Of a stretch of 38,167 bases of DNA, positions 25,365 through 35,479 are shown in pieces. Source of the stretch: Flavobacteriaceae bacterium (GTDB lineage Bacteria > Bacteroidota > Bacteroidia > Flavobacteriales > Flavobacteriaceae); the NCBI GenBank assembly GCA_002707745.1, contig PANU01000087.1:1-38167 (forward strand), given 5' to 3'. The position numbers and the translations under genes were made by a program. The notes beneath the pieces were generated by a model. The model did not search any database. It had not been told where the DNA came from and worked only from the letters and a program-made list of their open reading frames with translations. Within the stretch, counting starts at the first letter, position 1. Every line of letters begins with the position of its first letter.

Positions 25365-25426
25365 TAACATTAAGATAACACAAACCTTACTTAATGCTAA
25401 AACAAGCATAACATTTAGGTAACCAG
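25365..25426 (+). promoter_or_regulatory. Six 11-bp-phased TAACATT-like direct repeats (putative extended Pho-box-like array)
   Basis: 25365 TAACATT, 25376 TAACACA, 25387 TTACTTA, 25398 TAAAACA, 25409 TAACATT, 25420 TAACCAG. Confidence 0.65.
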
Positions 25427-25444: not shown

Positions 25445-25452
25445 TTTCTTTG
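25445..25452 (+). promoter_or_regulatory. Degenerate -7 element of the TonB-dependent receptor gene
   Basis: TTTCTTTG then CACC; 25 bp from the last repeat. Confidence 0.5.
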
Positions 25453-25475: not shown

Positions 25476-28262
25476 ATGAGCAAATTATTTACAGCAGCAA
25501 TGCTATTATTTACTGCCTTAACGTTCGCACAAACTGGGACGATAGAAGGTACATTAACCGACAAAGATGCCAATGGGGAACCCTTGCCGTTTGCCAATGT
25601 TATATTAAAAGGAACCACAAAAGGAACCACTACCGATTTTGACGGCAACTATAGTATAGAAAATGTCCCCGTTGGAAGTTATGTGATAGAATTCAGTTTT
25701 GTTGGGTATGAAACTGTTGAAATTCCAAACGTAACCGTTGAAACGGACAAATTTACACGGATAGATGCAGCATTAGGAGCCAGCGCAGCAGCCCTGGACG
25801 AGGTATTTATTACCGTACAAACCAGCCGTGAACGTGAAACGGCCTTATTATTAGAACAAAAAGAAGCGGTAGCAATTAAAGAGAGTATTGGAGCGGAGCA
25901 AATGGGTAAGCTTGGTGTTTCTGATGCTTCAAGCGCCACCACAAAAATTTCGGGGGTTTCTAAAACAGACGGAAGCGGAGATGTTTTTGTACGTGGATTG
26001 GGAGACCGTTATTTATCGACAACGCTTAATGGCCTGCCCATCCCTTCGGACGATGTGGAGCGCAAGAATATTGGTTTAGAACTTTTTAACACCCGATTGA
26101 TACAGAGCATTGGCGTGAGCAAGACTATGTCACCAAATCTTACTGCAGATCAGGCTTCAGGAACTGTTGATATTACTTCTAAAGAGTTGAGTGGAAGTTC
26201 GGAGCTTTCTGCTAAAGTTGGGGCTTCCGTTAATACCAATGTGTTACAGGACGGTGTTTTTGACAATTTTAAAGTATCTCCTAATAGCGACGATGTTACT
26301 GCGGGAATTTATGTTAAGGACTTTTCAACCAGAAGAGCCATTACCGAGCAAACCTGGGCACCACAAACCGCAAGTTTGCCTGTAAACAATTCTGTTTCCT
26401 TCAGTATAGGAAAAAAATTAGGAGATCGTTTTAAAGTGTTGTTAACGGCCGGACAGAATAGTACCTATGAATATCAAAACGGGGTGTTCCGTCAGTTTCG
26501 TTCCAACTTTATCGATGACTCCATTCCAGATGCGATTACCTGGAAAAAGGAAGTAGCTACTTCGGCATTATTTACGACCAAGTTTAAGGCAGACGATAAT
26601 AATGATCTGAAGTTTACAGCCTTAGTGATCAATAAAATTACCGATCAGGTTTTTGAAGGAGGGCGTGAAGGAACGGCCACTATTTTTGAAGAAACCGATG
26701 AAGGAGAAGCATTTCAGTTTGTTCGCGATCAAAACCTAAAGAAAACCCTGGTTTCCGTAACACAGCTATCTGGAGATCACGATCTATCTGAAAACAACAC
26801 CCTTACATGGGCAGGAGGTTACAACTTTTTAAGTGCCGATGAGCCTAACCGAATTAGGAACGAAGTTAATTTCAATTTCACCGAACCAGGACAAGAAGAC
26901 CTGGTACAGTTAGGACGCACTGGTGGTTTTCAGCAACGTAAGAGTGTTCAAAAAATTACCGATGTAGAATACAATGGTCGTATTGCTGATATGCTTAAGA
27001 TCTATGATGATGAAACTAATAAGTTCAATATAAATGTGGGCGCAGATTACCGTAAAAAAACACGTGAGTTTCGTTCTATTTTCTATGGGGTTGAAGAAAC
27101 AGTTCTTAATGCTGTAAACCCTGAATCCATAGATGCTATAGCCGAAATTTTTACTCAAGAAAATTTCGATAATAATATTTTAAAGCTAAATGAGATAGAT
27201 CCGGATTTTTATGATGGAACGCTACAAAGTGTTTCTGGGTTTGCAAATTTTAGCGGTACGTTAGGCAAGTTAAGTGTAGCTGCTGGACTTCGTTTTCAAA
27301 AAGACGATATAGATGTAGACTTCGATGTGAACAACTTCCCTGGAAGAACCGGACAAGCTACTAAAAACTACCGCAGACTTTACCCATCATTTAATGTGAA
27401 ATACGAAATAAATGAAGAACATAGTGTTCGATTTGCAAACAGTACTACGCGAACTCTTCCAGAATTCAAAGAAATTGCTCCTTTTGAGTATGTTTCTCCA
27501 CAAGCGCAGGTTACACGAGGTAATCCAGATATTGAAGCCTCTACAAATTATAACTATGATTTAAAATGGGAGTTCTTTCCATCAAACGATCAGTTAGTTT
27601 CTTTGACAGGTTTTTATAAAGAAATAGAAGACCCTATCAATAAAGTACAAGATCGTGGAGCAGCTGGAATATTCTCTTACTTTAATTCTGCGGAGAAAGC
27701 TGAAGTATATGGATTAGAAGTTGAAACACGAATTAACCTTATGGCAGGAGACGAGCAACCTAAACTTAGACTTGGGCTAAATGCTGCACGCCTTTGGACA
27801 AGCCAGGATTTGAAAGATGAATTGGATGCAGATGGAAATTTAATACGAACATTTAAATACAACAACAAAACCGAAACAGAGCTCCAGGGCGCTTCAGAAT
27901 GGATCGTAAATACTTCTTTAAATTTTGAAACAAACCAAGAATATCCATTAGACGCAACCGTTGTGGCAAATTATGCAAGCGATAGAATTTTTGCTTTAGG
28001 TTCTCCAGAATTTCAATCCTCTGGAGATATCAACTACAATGAAGCTATTATAGAAAATGGTTTTGTCACCCTGGACGCTATCATAAACAAAGAGCTTAAC
28101 GATAATTGGACACTTGGTGTTCAAGCAAAAAACATATTAAATCCAGAGATAAAAAGAACGCAACTCATTCGCCCTAGTACAACAGGTGTGGAAAGCGAAG
28201 AAACGGTACTTTCTTATACCAAAGGTGTACGACTGGGACTTACTATTAACTATTCATTTTAA
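25476..28262 (+). CDS. TonB-dependent outer membrane receptor with N-terminal carboxypeptidase-regulatory-like domain
   Basis: Signal peptide, GTIEGTLTDKDANGEPLPFANVILKGTTKGTTTDFDGNYSIENVPVGSYVIEFSFVGYE, plug FVRGLGDRYLSTTLNGLPIPSDD, C-terminal TINYSF. Confidence 0.93.
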   Translation: MSKLFTAAMLLFTALTFAQTGTIEGTLTDKDANGEPLPFANVILKGTTKGTTTDFDGNYSIENVPVGSYVIEFSFVGYETVEIPNVTVETDKFTRIDAALGASAAALDEVFITVQTSRERETALLLEQKEAVAIKESIGAEQMGKLGVSDASSATTKISGVSKTDGSGDVFVRGLGDRYLSTTLNGLPIPSDDVERKNIGLELFNTRLIQSIGVSKTMSPNLTADQASGTVDITSKELSGSSELSAKVGASVNTNVLQDGVFDNFKVSPNSDDVTAGIYVKDFSTRRAITEQTWAPQTASLPVNNSVSFSIGKKLGDRFKVLLTAGQNSTYEYQNGVFRQFRSNFIDDSIPDAITWKKEVATSALFTTKFKADDNNDLKFTALVINKITDQVFEGGREGTATIFEETDEGEAFQFVRDQNLKKTLVSVTQLSGDHDLSENNTLTWAGGYNFLSADEPNRIRNEVNFNFTEPGQEDLVQLGRTGGFQQRKSVQKITDVEYNGRIADMLKIYDDETNKFNINVGADYRKKTREFRSIFYGVEETVLNAVNPESIDAIAEIFTQENFDNNILKLNEIDPDFYDGTLQSVSGFANFSGTLGKLSVAAGLRFQKDDIDVDFDVNNFPGRTGQATKNYRRLYPSFNVKYEINEEHSVRFANSTTRTLPEFKEIAPFEYVSPQAQVTRGNPDIEASTNYNYDLKWEFFPSNDQLVSLTGFYKEIEDPINKVQDRGAAGIFSYFNSAEKAEVYGLEVETRINLMAGDEQPKLRLGLNAARLWTSQDLKDELDADGNLIRTFKYNNKTETELQGASEWIVNTSLNFETNQEYPLDATVVANYASDRIFALGSPEFQSSGDINYNEAIIENGFVTLDAIINKELNDNWTLGVQAKNILNPEIKRTQLIRPSTTGVESEETVLSYTKGVRLGLTINYSF

Positions 28263-28292
28263 CATTAATTATTTATTAAACTTTAAACAACT

Positions 28293-30239
28293 ATGAAAAA
28301 TCTAAGAAATTTTACTAGAATTTTTGCGATACTAAGTATCGTACTAGCTGCTAGCTGTAGCAGTGATGACGACTTCGTTCAAAATGATGACGACACCGTG
28401 TCTGAAGAATTAGACCTTACAGGAGATATTACAGCAGACCGTATCCTTGACGCTACACAACAGTACACGTTGTCTGGACCTGTTTTAATTAAAGACGGAG
28501 CTAAATTGACCATTCCTGCTGGAACATTAATTATTGCTGAAGCGGGACAAGAAACCTACATTGCTGTAGAGAAAGGGGGTGAGATAGATATTCAAGGTAC
28601 TGCCAGCCTACCAGTAATTATGCGTTCTACCGCTGGGTCTCCGGGAGATTGGGGTGGTTTATTACTTTGTGGGAATGCACCAACTACTGAAGGTGTTAAT
28701 GTAATTGCTGAAGTAGGTGGATTAATCTACGGAGGTAATGAGCCAACAGATAGCTCAGGAAACATAGATTACCTTATCATCGAAGGTGCCGGATCACAAA
28801 TTAATCCAGACTCACAATATAATGGTCTTACGTTGTATGCGGTAGGATCAGGAACTTCTATCGACAACGTAGCTGTACTGAACGGTGCAGATGATGGTGT
28901 TGAATTTTTTGGCGGAACAGTAAGTGTTACCAACTTTTATTCTGAAAACAATGAAGACGATTCTGTAGATTGGACTGAAGGATGGAACGGAACTTTAACT
29001 AACTCTTATGTATTACATACACAAGAAGGTTTCTCTACTGCTGTTGAAGCTGACGGAGACAATGCGAACCCAAAACTTGTTAACTTTACCGCAAACTCTA
29101 CTGTAGGTGGAACTGCATTGCAGTTTAAGAAAGAATCTGGTGCGACCATTACAGGTCTTGCTTTAATTGGTTACGATATTTCATTGGATTTTAGAGATAA
29201 CGGTGCTTTTAGTAACGTGCAAATTGAAGGTGAAGATGCAAACCCCAATAATGCCTATGTAGCGGAGCCAACAGTAGACATCTCTACTTTTAGTTGGGTA
29301 AACTCTAACAACACTGGTGCCGAGGTAGTAATTTTAGAAGGCACTATAGCTGGAACTCAGACATTAGACCCTGGGACAAGTTATTTACTGGATGGTGCAC
29401 TTATTGTACCTAACGGAGCTAAATTGATAATTCCAGCCGGAACTAAAATTGCTGCTCGTCCAGGAGGACAGTCGGTTTATATAGCTGCACAGATTGGTGG
29501 GCAAATTGAAGTAAATGGTACTGCAGAGAATCCAGTTGTGATGTCGTCTGTTAGCGGACAACCTGGTGAGTGGGGTGGATTATTATTATGTGGTGATGCT
29601 CCAACAACCGAAGGGACAAATGTGATAGCTGAAGTTGGTGGCCTTGTTTACGGAGGTTCTAATGATGCTTCAGATTCTGGACAAATTAATTACTTAGTAA
29701 TTGTTGGTGCTGGAGCTCAAATTAACCCAGACTCTCAATTTAACGGCTTAACGCTTTACGCAGTAGGAACAGGTACAGAAATTAACAACGTAGCTGCCAT
29801 TAATGGAGCAGACGATGGTGTTGAATTTTTTGGTGGAACTGTAAGCATGACTAACTTCTATGCGCTTAACAACGAAGATGATTCTGTAGACTGGACTGAA
29901 GGATGGAATGGTACATTAACTAATGCATATGTACAAAACGATAACGCTGGTTTCTCTACTGCTGTCGAAGCTGATGGAGATAACTTTAATCCAAGTCTTA
30001 TAAACTTTACAGCTATATCCACTGTTGGTGGGACTGCCTTACAGTTTAAAAAAGAGTCTGGCGCTACCTTTACAAATGCTTTCTTAAGCGGTTATGATAC
30101 CAGAGTAGACTTTAGAGACAACGGAGCTCCTAGCAACGTAGTTGTAGACGGAACTCCATTAACAGGACCTGATGATGATGTGTTTAACGGGACTGCCGTA
30201 GACATTTCTATGTGGACTTGGATTAATGCAAGATTATAA
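28293..30239 (+). CDS. Secreted lipoprotein with two tandem ~300-aa predicted beta-solenoid-like repeats
   Basis: Lipobox SIVLAASCSSDDD; two copies of EWGGLLLCGxAPTTEGxNVIAEVGGL...NGADDGVEFFGGTVSxTNFY...NNEDDSVDWTEGWNGTLTN...GGTALQFKKESGAT. Confidence 0.85.
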   Translation: MKNLRNFTRIFAILSIVLAASCSSDDDFVQNDDDTVSEELDLTGDITADRILDATQQYTLSGPVLIKDGAKLTIPAGTLIIAEAGQETYIAVEKGGEIDIQGTASLPVIMRSTAGSPGDWGGLLLCGNAPTTEGVNVIAEVGGLIYGGNEPTDSSGNIDYLIIEGAGSQINPDSQYNGLTLYAVGSGTSIDNVAVLNGADDGVEFFGGTVSVTNFYSENNEDDSVDWTEGWNGTLTNSYVLHTQEGFSTAVEADGDNANPKLVNFTANSTVGGTALQFKKESGATITGLALIGYDISLDFRDNGAFSNVQIEGEDANPNNAYVAEPTVDISTFSWVNSNNTGAEVVILEGTIAGTQTLDPGTSYLLDGALIVPNGAKLIIPAGTKIAARPGGQSVYIAAQIGGQIEVNGTAENPVVMSSVSGQPGEWGGLLLCGDAPTTEGTNVIAEVGGLVYGGSNDASDSGQINYLVIVGAGAQINPDSQFNGLTLYAVGTGTEINNVAAINGADDGVEFFGGTVSMTNFYALNNEDDSVDWTEGWNGTLTNAYVQNDNAGFSTAVEADGDNFNPSLINFTAISTVGGTALQFKKESGATFTNAFLSGYDTRVDFRDNGAPSNVVVDGTPLTGPDDDVFNGTAVDISMWTWINARL

Positions 30240-30260
30240 TCCTCATTTTATAATTAGCTA

Positions 30261-30295
30261 AAAAGGGCGATCAAACTATGTTTGATCGCCCTTTT
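30261..30295. terminator. Bidirectional intrinsic terminator
   Basis: AAAAGGGCGATCAAA-CTATG-TTTGATCGCCCTTTT. Confidence 0.88.
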
Positions 30296-30316
30296 ACTAT
30301 TTTAAATAGTATTCAA

Positions 30317-30697
30317 TTATTTATAAGATACCACACGAGTATCTTTTGCCTCCCACGTATTTACTTTAGCAATTTTAGAATTTGCATAGGTTACTTCTTT
30401 CATGGTATCTCCCTGGTAAAACTTCCAGGTCCCTACTTTGTTACCGTTGTTATACTGGGCAACCGCAGTTTTTTTTCCGTTGGCATCATAACTTACCCAT
30501 TCGCCTTGTAATTTATTTTCTTGGGTATAAAAACCTGTTTGCGCTATTGCGCCATTTTCGTGATATAAGGTGGCTTCAATAAGCCCGTCTACCAGTACAT
30601 ACTTGTCTTTAACGTCTTTGCTACATATTTTGCTACATTGTGCTACCGCTACATTAGCTAATAAACACACTACTAAAAGGGATATAATATTTTTCAT
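30317..30697 (-). CDS. Secreted MORN-like repeat protein, unknown function
   Basis: 126 aa with signal peptide; YHENGAIAQTGFYTQENKLQGEWVSYDANGKKTAVAQYNNGNKVGTWKFY pattern. Confidence 0.8.
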   Translation of the reverse strand: MKNIISLLVVCLLANVAVAQCSKICSKDVKDKYVLVDGLIEATLYHENGAIAQTGFYTQENKLQGEWVSYDANGKKTAVAQYNNGNKVGTWKFYQGDTMKEVTYANSKIAKVNTWEAKDTRVVSYK

Positions 30698-30725
30698 AAC
30701 TACAGTTTTTTAACGTTCTATATAC

Positions 30726-30733
30726 CAAAAATA
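30726..30733 (-). promoter_or_regulatory. -7 element of the MORN-like protein gene
   Basis: Minus strand TATTTTTG. Confidence 0.5.
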
Positions 30734-30814
30734 CAACATAGTTAACAATTTTGAAAGTATTTCATAACGTTATGGTAACATTAGGCGCATAACTTACTGT
30801 TTTATAGGCTGTTA

Positions 30815-30847
30815 TCCAATGTTAAGTTTTCAAAACTTAACATTGGA
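30815..30847. repeat. Perfect 33-nt palindrome containing TAACATT on both strands
   Basis: TCCAATGTTAAGTTTT-C-AAAACTTAACATTGGA. Confidence 0.95.
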
Positions 30848-30860
30848 GGCTTCAATTACT

Positions 30861-30915
30861 TAATAATAGCTTAATATTTAGGTTACATTCAAGCGACATA
30901 GATGTACTTATTTTG
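30861..30915 (+). promoter_or_regulatory. Pho-box-like promoter (three 11-bp-phased repeats plus -7 element) not preceding a recognizable gene
   Basis: TAATAAT 30861, TAATATT 30872, TTACATT 30883; -7 TTATTTTG 30908-30915. Confidence 0.5.
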
Positions 30916-30920
30916 TAGGG

Positions 30921-31011
30921 TCGTAAGACATGCACATCTGTAAATCGTTTAAGTTTTTGTCAACTAGATTTTAATGTGTACTGGCTACCTTTTTTAGGGT
31001 AGCCTTTTTTA
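30921..31011 (+). ncRNA. Candidate small RNA with intrinsic terminator
   Basis: Starts just downstream of the -7 at 30908-30915 and ends at GGCTACC-N8-GGTAGCC-TTTTTT (30983-31010); no convincing ORF. Confidence 0.45.
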
Positions 31012-31012
31012 T
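30983..31012 (+). terminator. Intrinsic terminator of the candidate sRNA
   Basis: GGCTACCTTTTTTAGGGTAGCCTTTTTT. Confidence 0.85.
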
Positions 31013-31043
31013 TTATACGAACACAAAATAATAGTTATAAATT

Positions 31044-31087
31044 TAATCATTACGTAACATTCAGTTAACATTGGTTTTAGTTCTTTG
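31044..31087 (+). promoter_or_regulatory. Pho-box-like promoter of the porin gene
   Basis: TAATCAT 31044 (weak), TAACATT 31055, TAACATT 31066; -7 GTTCTTTG 31080-31087 then CAGC. Confidence 0.6.
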
Positions 31088-31115
31088 CAGCGACAAAAAC
31101 TTAAAGACGATTGTA

Positions 31116-32318
31116 ATGAGAGTATCTTTCCTTCTTGTAGGGTTAACCTGCATGATTTTAAATATTGCTAATGCACAAGAAATTAGCGATGCTAAATTTG
31201 GTAAAGGTCTACTTAACTTTGTGGCAAAAGACAGTTCCTTCAGTGTAAATTTTGCACCTCGTATTCAGGGACGCTTTATGTCTGAGTGGAACCACAATGG
31301 TGACAACTACGGTAGCCCCGAGCACAACTTCTTAATTCGCCGAGCCCGACTTAAATTTGGTGGTTTTGCGTATTCCCCGAACCTAAAATATAAAATTGAA
31401 TTGGGACTCTCCAACCGTGATATTTCGGGAGGAAACCAATTTAACCGTAATACCTCCCGCATTATCTTAGACGCAGTGGTGATGTGGAATTTCTACGAAA
31501 ATTTCGAATTATGGGCAGGACAAACCAAGCTTCCCGGCAATGTGGAGCGTGTGGTTTCTTCAGCCAATTTACAGCTTATAGACCGCTCTTTATTAAACAG
31601 TAATTTTAATATAGATCGGGATGTGGGTATACAACTACGTCACGAGACTAACCTGGGAGGTAACTTCTGGACTCGCGAAAAAGTTGCTGTTTCCCAAGGG
31701 GAAGGGCGCAACGTAACGGAAGGCAACGAAGGTGGTTTGCAGTATACGGGTCGCTTGGAGTTTTTACCTTTCGGAAAATTTGCTTCAAAAGGAGATTATA
31801 CACAAGTTGATTTAAAAAGAGAAGCATCTCCTAAATTAATGATCGGGATTACCTACGACTACAATAACGATGCTGTTAAAACAAGAAGCAACCTGGGCTC
31901 CTATATGTTTTTGGAAGATGGTAGCTTGTATGAAACAGACATTACTACATTCTTTGCCGATGCCATGTTTAAGTACAAAGGTTTTGCCTTTATGGGCGAA
32001 TATGCTGCCAGGGATGCAGAAAACCCTGTTGCGGTAGAAGCCGACGGAAGTGCTACGGGCGATATTGTTCGTGTTGGAAATGCCTTTAATGCACAGCTCA
32101 GTTATTTATTCAAAAATAATTACGAAATTACAAGCCGTTATACCACTACCGATTTTAAATCGGTAACCAGTAGAGCACCGCAAGACCAATATACCTTAGG
32201 GGTGTCAAAATATATTGTAGGACATAAATTAAAAGTTCAGGGAGACGTGAGTTATACTACCCTAGATGGTAGCGAAGACAATATCATGGTAAGAACTGGA
32301 TTTGAATTACATTTTTAA
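31116..32318 (+). CDS. Porin, phosphate-selective porin O/P-like
   Basis: Start trimmed to MRVSFLLVGLTCMILNIANAQ (signal peptide, downstream of the predicted TSS); FAPRIQGRFMSEWNHNGDNYGSPEHNFLIRRARLKFGGFAYSPNLKYKIELG; C-terminal TGFELHF. Confidence 0.82.
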   Translation: MRVSFLLVGLTCMILNIANAQEISDAKFGKGLLNFVAKDSSFSVNFAPRIQGRFMSEWNHNGDNYGSPEHNFLIRRARLKFGGFAYSPNLKYKIELGLSNRDISGGNQFNRNTSRIILDAVVMWNFYENFELWAGQTKLPGNVERVVSSANLQLIDRSLLNSNFNIDRDVGIQLRHETNLGGNFWTREKVAVSQGEGRNVTEGNEGGLQYTGRLEFLPFGKFASKGDYTQVDLKREASPKLMIGITYDYNNDAVKTRSNLGSYMFLEDGSLYETDITTFFADAMFKYKGFAFMGEYAARDAENPVAVEADGSATGDIVRVGNAFNAQLSYLFKNNYEITSRYTTTDFKSVTSRAPQDQYTLGVSKYIVGHKLKVQGDVSYTTLDGSEDNIMVRTGFELHF

Positions 32319-32327
32319 TAAAAGAGA

Positions 32328-32371
32328 TAACAATTTGGTAACAAATGGGCTCATTTAATTTGTGACATTTG
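32328..32371 (+). promoter_or_regulatory. Pho-box-like promoter of the phosphate transporter gene
   Basis: TAACAAT 32328, TAACAAA 32339 (11-bp phase); -7 GACATTTG 32364-32371, ATG 4 nt later. Confidence 0.6.
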
Positions 32372-32375
32372 CGCC

Positions 32376-34640
32376 ATGGAAGCACTATTTAATATGGAAA
32401 ATATTTATTTATTCATGCTAATTGCATTAGTTGTTTTAGCCGTGATAGATATCGTCGTTGGAGTAAGTAACGATGCTATAAACTTTTTAAACTCTGCTAT
32501 TGGTTCCAAAGCAATTTCTATGCGAACCATTATGATCGTGGCTAGTTTGGGTATTTTTATTGGCGCTGTCTTTTCCAGTGGCCTTATGGAAGTAGCCCGA
32601 AAGGGGATATTTGTCCCCGGACAATTCTATTTCGATGAGATCATGGTTATTTTTATGGCTGTAATGATCACAGATATCTTACTGCTGGATTTCTTTAATA
32701 CACTGGGTTTACCAACTTCTACAACAGTTTCTATCGTTTTCAACTTGTTAGGGGCTGCGGTTGTAATGTCCTGTATTAAAATAAGTAAGTCGGATACCGA
32801 AACACTTGCTAACCTTGCAGAATATATTAATACAGCAAAAGCTTTTGAAATTATCATGGGTATCTTATTATCTGTACTTATCGCTTTTACGATAGGAGCT
32901 TTGGTACAGTGGATTTCCAGATTAGTTTTCACCTTTCACTTTAAAGATAAAATGAAACACTTTGGAGCTGTGTTTGGCGGAATCGCATTAGCAGCTATTG
33001 GGTATTTTATTTTTATGAAAGGCCTAAAGGGAACCCCGTATTACGATGATTTTAAAGATATTATAGAAGGGAATGAGCTTGTAATATTGGGAAGTAGCTT
33101 TATATTCTTTACCTTATTTTCTTATGCTTTTCAGAAAATATTTAAGAAAAGTATCTTAATAATTGTAATTGCTGTTGGAACGTTTGGATTGGCTCTTGCT
33201 TTTTCAGGAAACGATTTGGTAAACTTTATCGGGGTGCCTATGGCAGCATACCATTCGTACGAATTTTGGGCAGCTTCGGGAGTAGATGCAAGTTTATTCT
33301 CTATGGAAATTTTAGAAAAGAAAGTACCTGCAGAACCGCTATTGTTATTTATTGCCGGTGCCATCATGGTAATTACACTTTGGTTCTCTAAAAAAGCCAA
33401 AACCGTTGCAGAAACCGAAATAAGTTTATCCCGTCAGGGAGAAACACACGAAAAGTTTGAACCCAATATGCTTTCCAGACTCATCGTAAGAGGAACCACT
33501 GGTCTGTCTTTTGGATTGGGCAAAGTTATTCCGGCAGCTGCTCAGGAAAAAATTAATAAAAGTTTTCAAAAACCCGACACGAAAGCCCTTACCAAGGATC
33601 AAAGTATAAATGCTCCTGCTTTCGATATGATTAGAGCCTCTGTAAACCTTATGGTTGCGGGTGTACTAATTTCAATTGCAACCACTATGAAACTCCCACT
33701 GTCCACTACCTACGTTACTTTTATGGTGGCCATGGGTACTTCCCTTGCAGACAGAGCCTGGGGAAGAGAAAGTGCTGTGTATAGAGTAGCCGGGGTTCTT
33801 AATGTAATTGGCGGATGGTTCTTTACAGCCATTGGTGCTTTTATTGCGTGTGGAGTTGTAGTGTTCCTTATACAATGGAACAAGGAGATTATGACCCCAA
33901 TACTCCTATTACTTACCGTTTTATTATTGGTAAGAAACTACCTTTCTCATAAAAAGAAAAGTGAAATATCCTTAGATCCAAGTAAACTAAAAAAGAGCGA
34001 AAGTAGTACGGTACAAGGTATTATTTCAGAAAGTGCCGACAACATCTCAAACGTCATTTCACGTACTAATAAAATTTATTCTATTGTGCTGAAAGGTCTG
34101 GCCAAAGAAGATTCTAAAGGACTTAAAAAAGGAAGAAAGCAAGTTGATAAGTTAGATGCAGAAATTGAAGAGCTACGGGACAATATTTTTTATCTCATTA
34201 AAAATCTGGATGAAACCAGTGTGCGTGGAAGCAATTTTTACATCATTATATTGGGGCACTTAACTGATATGGCACAGTCCTTGGATTTTATTGCCAAAAA
34301 GAGTTATAAACATATCAACAACAATCATAAAAAACTGAAATTCAGTCAAATTAAAGACCTTCAGGAAATAGACCAGACCCTTACTTCGGTTTTGGAAGAA
34401 ATAGAAGAAGTTTTTAATAGCCGAAAGTTTGAGCGTGTTAGTTTTGTACTTGCAAGAAAGAGTGAGGTGGAAGCAATGCTTTCTGATAAAATTCAGAAAC
34501 AAATTGACCGCACCCGAAGCGAAGAATCCAGTCCTAAAAATACAACCTTGTATTTTAATATTTTGTTAGAAACAAAAGACCTGGCTTCAGGGATTATGAA
34601 CCTGATGGAAGAATACTATTCAAGCTATAAACGCGAGTAA
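32376..34640 (+). CDS. Inorganic phosphate transporter (PiT/PHO4 family) with C-terminal PhoU-like helical domain
   Basis: VVGVSNDAINFLNSAIGSKAISMRT and TMKLPLSTTYVTFMVAMGTSLADRAWGRESAVYRVAG signature duplication; C-terminal ~200 aa charged helical region. Confidence 0.9.
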   Translation: MEALFNMENIYLFMLIALVVLAVIDIVVGVSNDAINFLNSAIGSKAISMRTIMIVASLGIFIGAVFSSGLMEVARKGIFVPGQFYFDEIMVIFMAVMITDILLLDFFNTLGLPTSTTVSIVFNLLGAAVVMSCIKISKSDTETLANLAEYINTAKAFEIIMGILLSVLIAFTIGALVQWISRLVFTFHFKDKMKHFGAVFGGIALAAIGYFIFMKGLKGTPYYDDFKDIIEGNELVILGSSFIFFTLFSYAFQKIFKKSILIIVIAVGTFGLALAFSGNDLVNFIGVPMAAYHSYEFWAASGVDASLFSMEILEKKVPAEPLLLFIAGAIMVITLWFSKKAKTVAETEISLSRQGETHEKFEPNMLSRLIVRGTTGLSFGLGKVIPAAAQEKINKSFQKPDTKALTKDQSINAPAFDMIRASVNLMVAGVLISIATTMKLPLSTTYVTFMVAMGTSLADRAWGRESAVYRVAGVLNVIGGWFFTAIGAFIACGVVVFLIQWNKEIMTPILLLLTVLLLVRNYLSHKKKSEISLDPSKLKKSESSTVQGIISESADNISNVISRTNKIYSIVLKGLAKEDSKGLKKGRKQVDKLDAEIEELRDNIFYLIKNLDETSVRGSNFYIIILGHLTDMAQSLDFIAKKSYKHINNNHKKLKFSQIKDLQEIDQTLTSVLEEIEEVFNSRKFERVSFVLARKSEVEAMLSDKIQKQIDRTRSEESSPKNTTLYFNILLETKDLASGIMNLMEEYYSSYKRE

Positions 34641-34660: not shown

Positions 34661-34697
34661 AACCCCATATTGGCTTTGCTGATATGGGGTTTTTATT
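34661..34697 (+). terminator. Intrinsic terminator of the phosphate transporter gene
   Basis: AACCCCATAT-N11-ATATGGGGTTTTTATTTT. Confidence 0.85.
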
Positions 34698-34771
34698 TTA
34701 TTTGCTTTTCTATAGACATGAAGCAACTTTCAGTATTGTTGTCTATCTTTAACTATCGAAACTACAAGCTT

Positions 34772-35479
34772 ATGAAATTTTATCTCCTAGCCTCCCTGCT
34801 GCTAATTTTGAACGTTACGAAACTATCTGCCCAAGAAATGAGCGCTTTAAATGTTTTAGAAAAAGCAATTGAGTACCACGATCCAAACGGAGCCTGGCAA
34901 CAATTTAACAACACGTTTCAAGTTACCATGACCACTCCCGGAAAACCCGACAGAGTAAGTGACATCCGTATAAACATTCCGCAAGATTATTTTAATCTTG
35001 TAAATAAGCGCGATGGAGATACCACTACCTACACCCTAAATAAAGGCAACTGCACTACCAGCATAACCGACTCCATAGCCCAGGCTGGCGCAAGAACCCC
35101 ATGTGAAACGGCTGCCCTTTACAAAAATTACTACACTTACCTCTACGGCCTCCCCATGAAGCTGAAAGATCCTGGGGCTAACCTGGCTCCAAAAGTTGAA
35201 AAAGTAACGTTTAAAGACAAAAAATATTTAAAGCTAAAAGTTACCTATGATGAAGCGGTAGGTAGCGATGTTTGGTTTTTCTACCTCAACCCAACCACCT
35301 ACGCTATGGAAGTATATCAGTTTTTTAAAGGCGAACCCGACGGCGCTGGAAAAGATACAGGCGAATACATACTACTCTCCGAAGAAAGCATTGTAAACGG
35401 AATTAAAATGCCAAAAGTCAGGGCGTGGTACTACAATAAGGATGATACGTACCTGGGAACAGATACCATTAGCAATTAA
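34772..35479 (+). CDS. Periplasmic/secreted protein of unknown function with signal peptide (LolA-like fold possible)
   Basis: MKFYLLASLLLILNVTKLSAQ signal peptide; YFLNPTTYAMEVYQF-type beta-strand pattern; ORF start trimmed. Confidence 0.7.
   Translation: MKFYLLASLLLILNVTKLSAQEMSALNVLEKAIEYHDPNGAWQQFNNTFQVTMTTPGKPDRVSDIRINIPQDYFNLVNKRDGDTTTYTLNKGNCTTSITDSIAQAGARTPCETAALYKNYYTYLYGLPMKLKDPGANLAPKVEKVTFKDKKYLKLKVTYDEAVGSDVWFFYLNPTTYAMEVYQFFKGEPDGAGKDTGEYILLSEESIVNGIKMPKVRAWYYNKDDTYLGTDTISN

Follow-up and report, generated by a model that had tools for sequence, protein, structure and literature searches.

A TonB-dependent receptor, a beta-helix lipoprotein, a PorinO/P porin and a PiT phosphate transporter, encoded side by side in a flavobacterial genome, very probably constitute a Pho-regulon module for phosphorus scavenging that has one shared switch and, in addition, an sRNA predicted to pair with the porin mRNA. 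The sRNA element, which the first-pass annotation of this DNA had overlooked, is conserved and apparently undescribed. It probably represents a new Flavobacteriaceae family of phosphate-linked sRNAs that are located just upstream of PorinO/P, are switched by a variant Pho-box and would control porin entry by pairing with the leader and start codon of the porin mRNA. The locus lies in a stretch of 38,167 nucleotides (hereafter the window) of a flavobacterial MAG of 2.76 Mb, which consists of 111 contigs and is 82% complete.

The receptor-lipoprotein pair and its neighbours

The grouping of four genes that the first-pass annotation had proposed is real: receptor, lipoprotein, PorinO/P and PiT were all found where it had placed them (Table 1), and their families are supported by Pfam, except for the lipoprotein, which is recognised by its lipobox. 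The receptor carries a CarboxypepD-reg-like domain at its N-terminus (AlphaFold model, pLDDT 84.7). It had been described as a receptor without a SusD partner, and in the window no SusD gene follows it; moreover, its score against SusC/RagA (TIGR04056) is 68.5 bits at a cut-off of 368, and hence it is not a SusC. The PiT, the sole one detected in the MAG, had been taken for a PiT-PhoU fusion. Its PiT part stands while the PhoU part is weak, since the C-terminal helical domain (33981-34637) is only weakly PhoU-like and has no match to PhoU (PF01895) in the window, although 6 of 13 homologous C-termini do match (best E 1.9e-5). A comparison of the PiT C-terminus with solved structures did not find PhoU, and no PstS-like protein (PF12849) was found in this 82% complete MAG. 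A gene for a DUF6503 protein (34670-35479) lies after PiT, with no Pho-box seen upstream. The MORN-like gene, also overlooked before, is a conserved neighbour of the porin and PiT genes, from which it diverges.

Table 1. Features of the locus, with positions in the window
Feature	Position	Strand	Remarks
Distal Pho-box-like repeat TAACATTAAGATAACA, upstream of receptor	25365..25380	+	conserved upstream in relatives
Proximal Pho-box-like repeat TAACATTTAGGTAACC, upstream of receptor	25409..25424	+	TTTG (-7-like) at 25449, 40 bp from repeat start
TonB-dependent receptor	25476..28262	+	PF00593, PF13715, PF07715
Lipoprotein with two right-handed beta-helix repeats, PUSIV-FII/ElpS kind	28293..30239	+	lipobox
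Small secreted MORN-like protein	30317..30697	-	neighbour in 28/79 loci
Pho-box-like repeat TAACGTTATGGTAACA, between MORN gene and sRNA	30765..30780	+	counterpart in relatives
Variant triple half-site TAATAAT/TAATATT/TTACATT, putative sRNA promoter	30861..30889	+	11-bp steps; TTTG 40 bp from start of middle half-site
Predicted sRNA	30919..31010	+	match of model R1 at 30911-31021; transcript ends predicted
Predicted sRNA seed TTTAAGTTTTTGTC	30948..30961	+	exact complement of porin leader 31092-31105
Predicted sRNA intrinsic terminator GGCTACC...GGTAGCC, T6	30983..31010	+	compensatory changes
Pho-box-like repeat TAACATTCAGTTAACA, porin promoter	31055..31070	+	TTTG at 31084, 29 bp from repeat start
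Porin mRNA leader element GACAAAAACTTAAA	31092..31105	+	predicted to pair with sRNA
PorinO/P outer-membrane porin	31116..32318	+	PF07396, 48.2 bits (cut-off 20.9)
Pho-box-like repeat TAACAATTTGGTAACA, PiT	32328..32343	+	TTTG at 32368, 40 bp from repeat start
PiT phosphate transporter	32376..34640	+	PF01384, 104.2 bits (gathering cut-off 33.7)

Among 60 relatives, 48 have the lipoprotein; across the phylum, the broad family to which it belongs is represented in 109 of 148 genomes. The receptor gene is located directly upstream of it in all 20 relatives compared (20/20) and in 76 of 79 named Bacteroidota loci, the other three being cut off at the contig start. Neighbours at these 79 loci include PhoB (36), PiT (24), PorinO/P (15) and, at several, pstSCAB-phoU, the names PhoB and PhoR being assigned from similarity and gene neighbourhood. 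The pair is syntenic with phoBR, PiT, PorinO/P or pstSCAB-phoU in Flavobacteriia and in some Bacteroidales. The linkage, proposed in the first-pass annotation as a check on a phosphorus role, is thus conserved, and this role is well supported by the synteny as well as by the shared operator that is conserved before these genes. In the relative L068, PiT, porin, lipoprotein, receptor, PhoB, PhoR and GT stand in one run, which joins the gene set of the window to the phoBR cluster of F. johnsoniae. The phoBR and glycosyltransferase genes of the window's own genome are found on a separate contig (C86), and relatives exist with either arrangement. The loci of Flavobacterium limi and F. hibernum contain GT, PhoR, PhoB, TBDT and lipoprotein in the order of Fjoh_0541-0546.

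The pair is of a known kind, represented by PUSIV and by ElpS/Cc0171, and tied to low phosphate rather than low iron. Lidbury et al. described the low-phosphate-specific cluster PUSIV of F. johnsoniae (Fjoh_0541-0549: GT, OprP, PhoR, PhoB, TBDT, lipoprotein FII), in which phoBR and OprP accompany the TonB receptor Fjoh_0545 and the lipoprotein FII Fjoh_0546; only low Pi induces the cluster, and FI-FIII are claimed to be homologous to ElpS (PMC8115612). In Caulobacter, Le Blastier et al. described ElpS and an adjacent TonB receptor, and found ElpS to be made in phosphate starvation and not in iron limitation, while the receptor partner Cc0171 is constitutive (PMC2996285). The idea that the locus might be undescribed therefore fails for the pair, because papers of 2010 and 2020 had already described receptor-lipoprotein pairs of this kind as proteins of phosphate starvation.

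The window resembles PUSIV in having a TBDT followed by a pectin-lyase-fold lipoprotein with phosphate genes around them, the low-Pi specificity being that of PUSIV. However, its lipoprotein is duplicated and its pair sits with PiT, PorinO/P and MORN; since phoBR-GT is on contig C86, the window locus works like PUSIV yet is not the same gene cluster. Furthermore, the Pho-box and sRNA of the window are without description in the available text of PMC8115612. ElpS (Cc0170) and Cc0171 of Caulobacter crescentus are alike by description, a surface lipoprotein being encoded beside a TonB receptor, and homologs of ElpS have been noted in Bacteroides, but ElpS adjoins a type II secretion system and Cc0171 is constitutive. 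SusCD and PusCD1/2 also combine TonB-dependent import through the outer membrane with a surface lipoprotein partner, whereas the window has no SusD, a receptor far under the SusC cut-off and a beta-helix as the partner.

Uptake of iron or siderophores had been named in the first-pass annotation as an example of an outcome that would speak against phosphorus. TonB receptors are classically iron receptors, and an acidic lipoprotein could bind metals, so that a pair devoted to iron, haem or siderophores and merely neighbouring phosphate genes has to be weighed. This reading seems highly improbable: the syntenic genes of F. johnsoniae show a response to Pi but none to Fe (PMC8115612), low iron does not induce elpS (PMC2996285), and the pair's coupling with phoBR, pst, PiT and the shared motif is conserved.

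The description of the lipoprotein as duplicated and acidic is confirmed, since its halves share 64% identity across 300 aa and the pI of the mature protein is 4.05 (84 D+E, 17 K+R). By sequence, no relative was found in Pfam, NCBIfam or among solved structures (PDB). The AlphaFold model (mean pLDDT 89) comprises two beta-helical domains, which in a fold search align with right-handed parallel beta-helices, for instance those of pectate lyases, polygalacturonases, alginate epimerases and tailspikes. Two motifs, DDGxEFFGG and DDxxDW, are invariant in both repeats at a distance of about one helix turn, and may form an acidic, perhaps metal-binding, patch. It is possible, though we hold it only tentatively, that the lipoprotein acts mainly as a surface enzyme (a phosphodiesterase, a phosphatase helper, or a hydrolase or lyase of phosphorylated glycans) whose products are imported by the receptor. 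The resemblance to lyases, polygalacturonases and epimerases, the invariant acidic motifs and the association of ElpS with phosphatase activity in supernatants all point in this direction; the fold search, however, singles out no enzyme family, as dozens of unrelated beta-helix proteins reach Z values of 18-21, and the PDB holds no sequence relative.

A direct repeat before phosphate genes

The operator-like motif that had been noticed at three transcription units proves to be a direct repeat with a period of 11 bp (TAACATT-N4-TAACA in its strict form), located at the receptor, porin and PiT promoters and conserved before the same genes. All Pho-box-like repeats of the window (Table 1) are intergenic, and matches with at most one mismatch number 6 in the window against 1.75 expected. 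In the 79 named loci, which cover 1.46 Mb, the strict repeat has 54 matches and its reversed control none (0); all 54 are intergenic, and they mostly precede TBDT, PiT, PorinO/P and lipoprotein genes. TTTG, here equated with the Bacteroidota -7 promoter element, peaks across 112 sites at 40 bp (24 cases) and 29 bp (11 cases) from the repeat start, and the receptor, porin and PiT promoters of the window have spacings of 40, 29 and 40 bp, respectively. This spacing fits a PhoB-type activator, and the repeats, whose 7-bp half-sites recur every 11 bp ahead of phosphate genes, can be regarded, as far as sequence goes, as Pho boxes.

The motif with one mismatch allowed is not enriched genome-wide (122 against 150 in the reversed control), and the case for an operator therefore rests on the strict form and its conservation. 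The phoB gene of the window's own genome has a one-mismatch site just upstream. For most other strict sites of this genome no tie to phosphate genes was found, and there is no such repeat near its PhoX-like gene. Another OmpR-family regulator might bind the repeats in place of PhoB, given that the MAG encodes a second Trans_reg_C protein (C61:24017) and that other proteins of the family bind similar direct repeats. Nevertheless, we consider such a regulator improbable, because the repeats precede phosphate genes, PhoBR is a frequent neighbour, and the motif core of Riemerella PhoP, a phosphate-responsive regulator, was determined by DAP-seq as TTTAACA (PMC9603813), in agreement with the repeat.

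Two kinds of additional genes were observed at related loci. Between Pho-box and receptor, several genera encode a secreted, stand-alone CarboxypepD-reg-like protein of ~130 aa (L120:6407-6793, L122:5506-5895, L147:6367-6756 and L155:6229-6615), which resembles a detached copy of the receptor N-terminal domain. At L085:555-2345, a gene for a Lamin-tail/nuclease-like secreted protein is divergent from phoB and has a repeat-like site on its own strand (2388); it is possibly another Pho gene.

A predicted sRNA upstream of the porin

The predicted sRNA is ~95 nt long and appears to qualify as such by having its own promoter-like sequence and an intrinsic terminator. The half-sites of its putative promoter are nonstandard, with TAATA instead of TAACA, and hence a second regulator is possible; the TTTG offset of 40 is the best in 18 of 29 genomes. 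All 8 stem pairs of the terminator are kept in relatives, with changes on both sides, and the fold z-scores of the element range from -2.5 to -5.5 (-3.2 for the window copy). The conserved core reads AGTTTTTGTC(G/A)ACT. With E values up to 1 considered, none of 4227 Rfam models matches the element, and the literature searched contains no mention of it. Rfp18 of F. psychrophilum (PMC9723704) is comparable as a small terminated flavobacterial RNA with predicted mRNA pairing, whereas the window sRNA differs from Bacteroidota sRNAs in its lack of an Rfam match and in being associated with a porin as well as with a phosphate promoter element.

A search with a model built from 22 copies detected the element in 34 of 99 relatives, all of one family and nearly always in a single copy. 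PorinO/P follows immediately downstream in 28 of 30 places examined, and this adjacency holds even where lipoprotein and receptor lie elsewhere. One exception is G218, where another porin-like beta-barrel (L196:200-1207) occupies the position of PorinO/P and has the same sRNA-complementary leader. The other is G018, whose sRNA has no adjacent porin; a further leader-like match in this genome does not precede a recognisable gene. A candidate in the genus Flavobacterium, a match at L168 with 26 bits, was rejected as unconvincing. Separately, an inverted repeat, CCAATGTTAAGTTTTCAAAACTTAACATTGG (window ~30815-30846), was observed between the MORN gene and the sRNA, and L063 contains a similar one.

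The sRNA core is the reverse complement, in 14/14 bases, of the porin leader just past the promoter. The predicted seed covaries with this leader: TTTAAG/CTTAAA occurs in the genus of the window, TATTAG/CTAATA in many genera, TAAAG/CTTTA in G016 and TTTTAG/CTAAAA in G034, while in L125 both partners are one base shorter. Duplex energies in 21 held-out genomes are -26.4 kcal/mol for cognate, -22.5 for non-cognate and -13.7 for shuffled leaders, with 0 of 20,000 permuted assignments equally good, and 227 of 273 seed cells at 39 loci are paired (maximum 219 in 5,000 shuffles; the count includes L067 and L183 read at the wrong core, which lowers the observed score); kinship among the genomes inflates these covariation tests, although the seeds fall into several classes. 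Three porin loci that lack the sRNA (L078, L168 and L173) lack the leader element as well. In the window's own genome, a search with the seed found one further exact 14-mer, in apparent coding sequence. Moreover, in many species the AUGAAA start region lies opposite a UUUCAU located upstream of the sRNA core, which makes a block of translation the likeliest effect.

The element and the leader lie on the same strand ~140 bp apart and a read-through transcript would fold on itself; the complementarity might accordingly act in cis, as a read-through hairpin, or reflect an inverted DNA operator, rather than mark a trans-acting RNA. We regard this as unlikely, since a terminator with compensatory changes separates the element from the leader and, beyond that terminator, a separate Pho-box promoter serves the porin. 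In addition, the pairing persists through changed seeds and through the shared one-base shortening in L125, which a protein operator would not need.

Proposed working and significance of the module

We propose that, under phosphate limitation, a PhoB-type regulator would bind the TAACATT direct repeats in their 11-bp steps, and that repeats 40 or 29 bp upstream of a -7 element would thereby switch on the receptor, porin and PiT promoters; the sites, spacing and conservation of the repeats are themselves observed directly. Judging from family and synteny, the beta-helix lipoprotein may capture or process a phosphorus-containing ligand on the outer surface, which the TonB receptor may then import. 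From what is known of their families, the porin would pass phosphate or small phosphorylated molecules, and PiT would move phosphate over the inner membrane. The sRNA, presumably expressed from the variant repeat, would base-pair with the leader and start-codon region of the porin mRNA, as the covariation suggests, and would adjust porin translation, most likely downwards.

Waters poor in phosphate harbour abundant Flavobacteriia, whose phosphorus sensing and uptake are, to our knowledge, poorly known, and we are aware of few sRNA targets in Bacteroidota. What is new here is a candidate regulatory RNA between genes of known kinds, the receptor-lipoprotein pair itself having been reported already. 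With the conserved operator, the class gains a Pho-box that can be tested, and Pho regulons could be listed from sequence. The predicted sRNA, if true, would bring a porin-directed RNA into the phosphate response of Bacteroidota; it has a single clear target, and its seed is ready for mutation.
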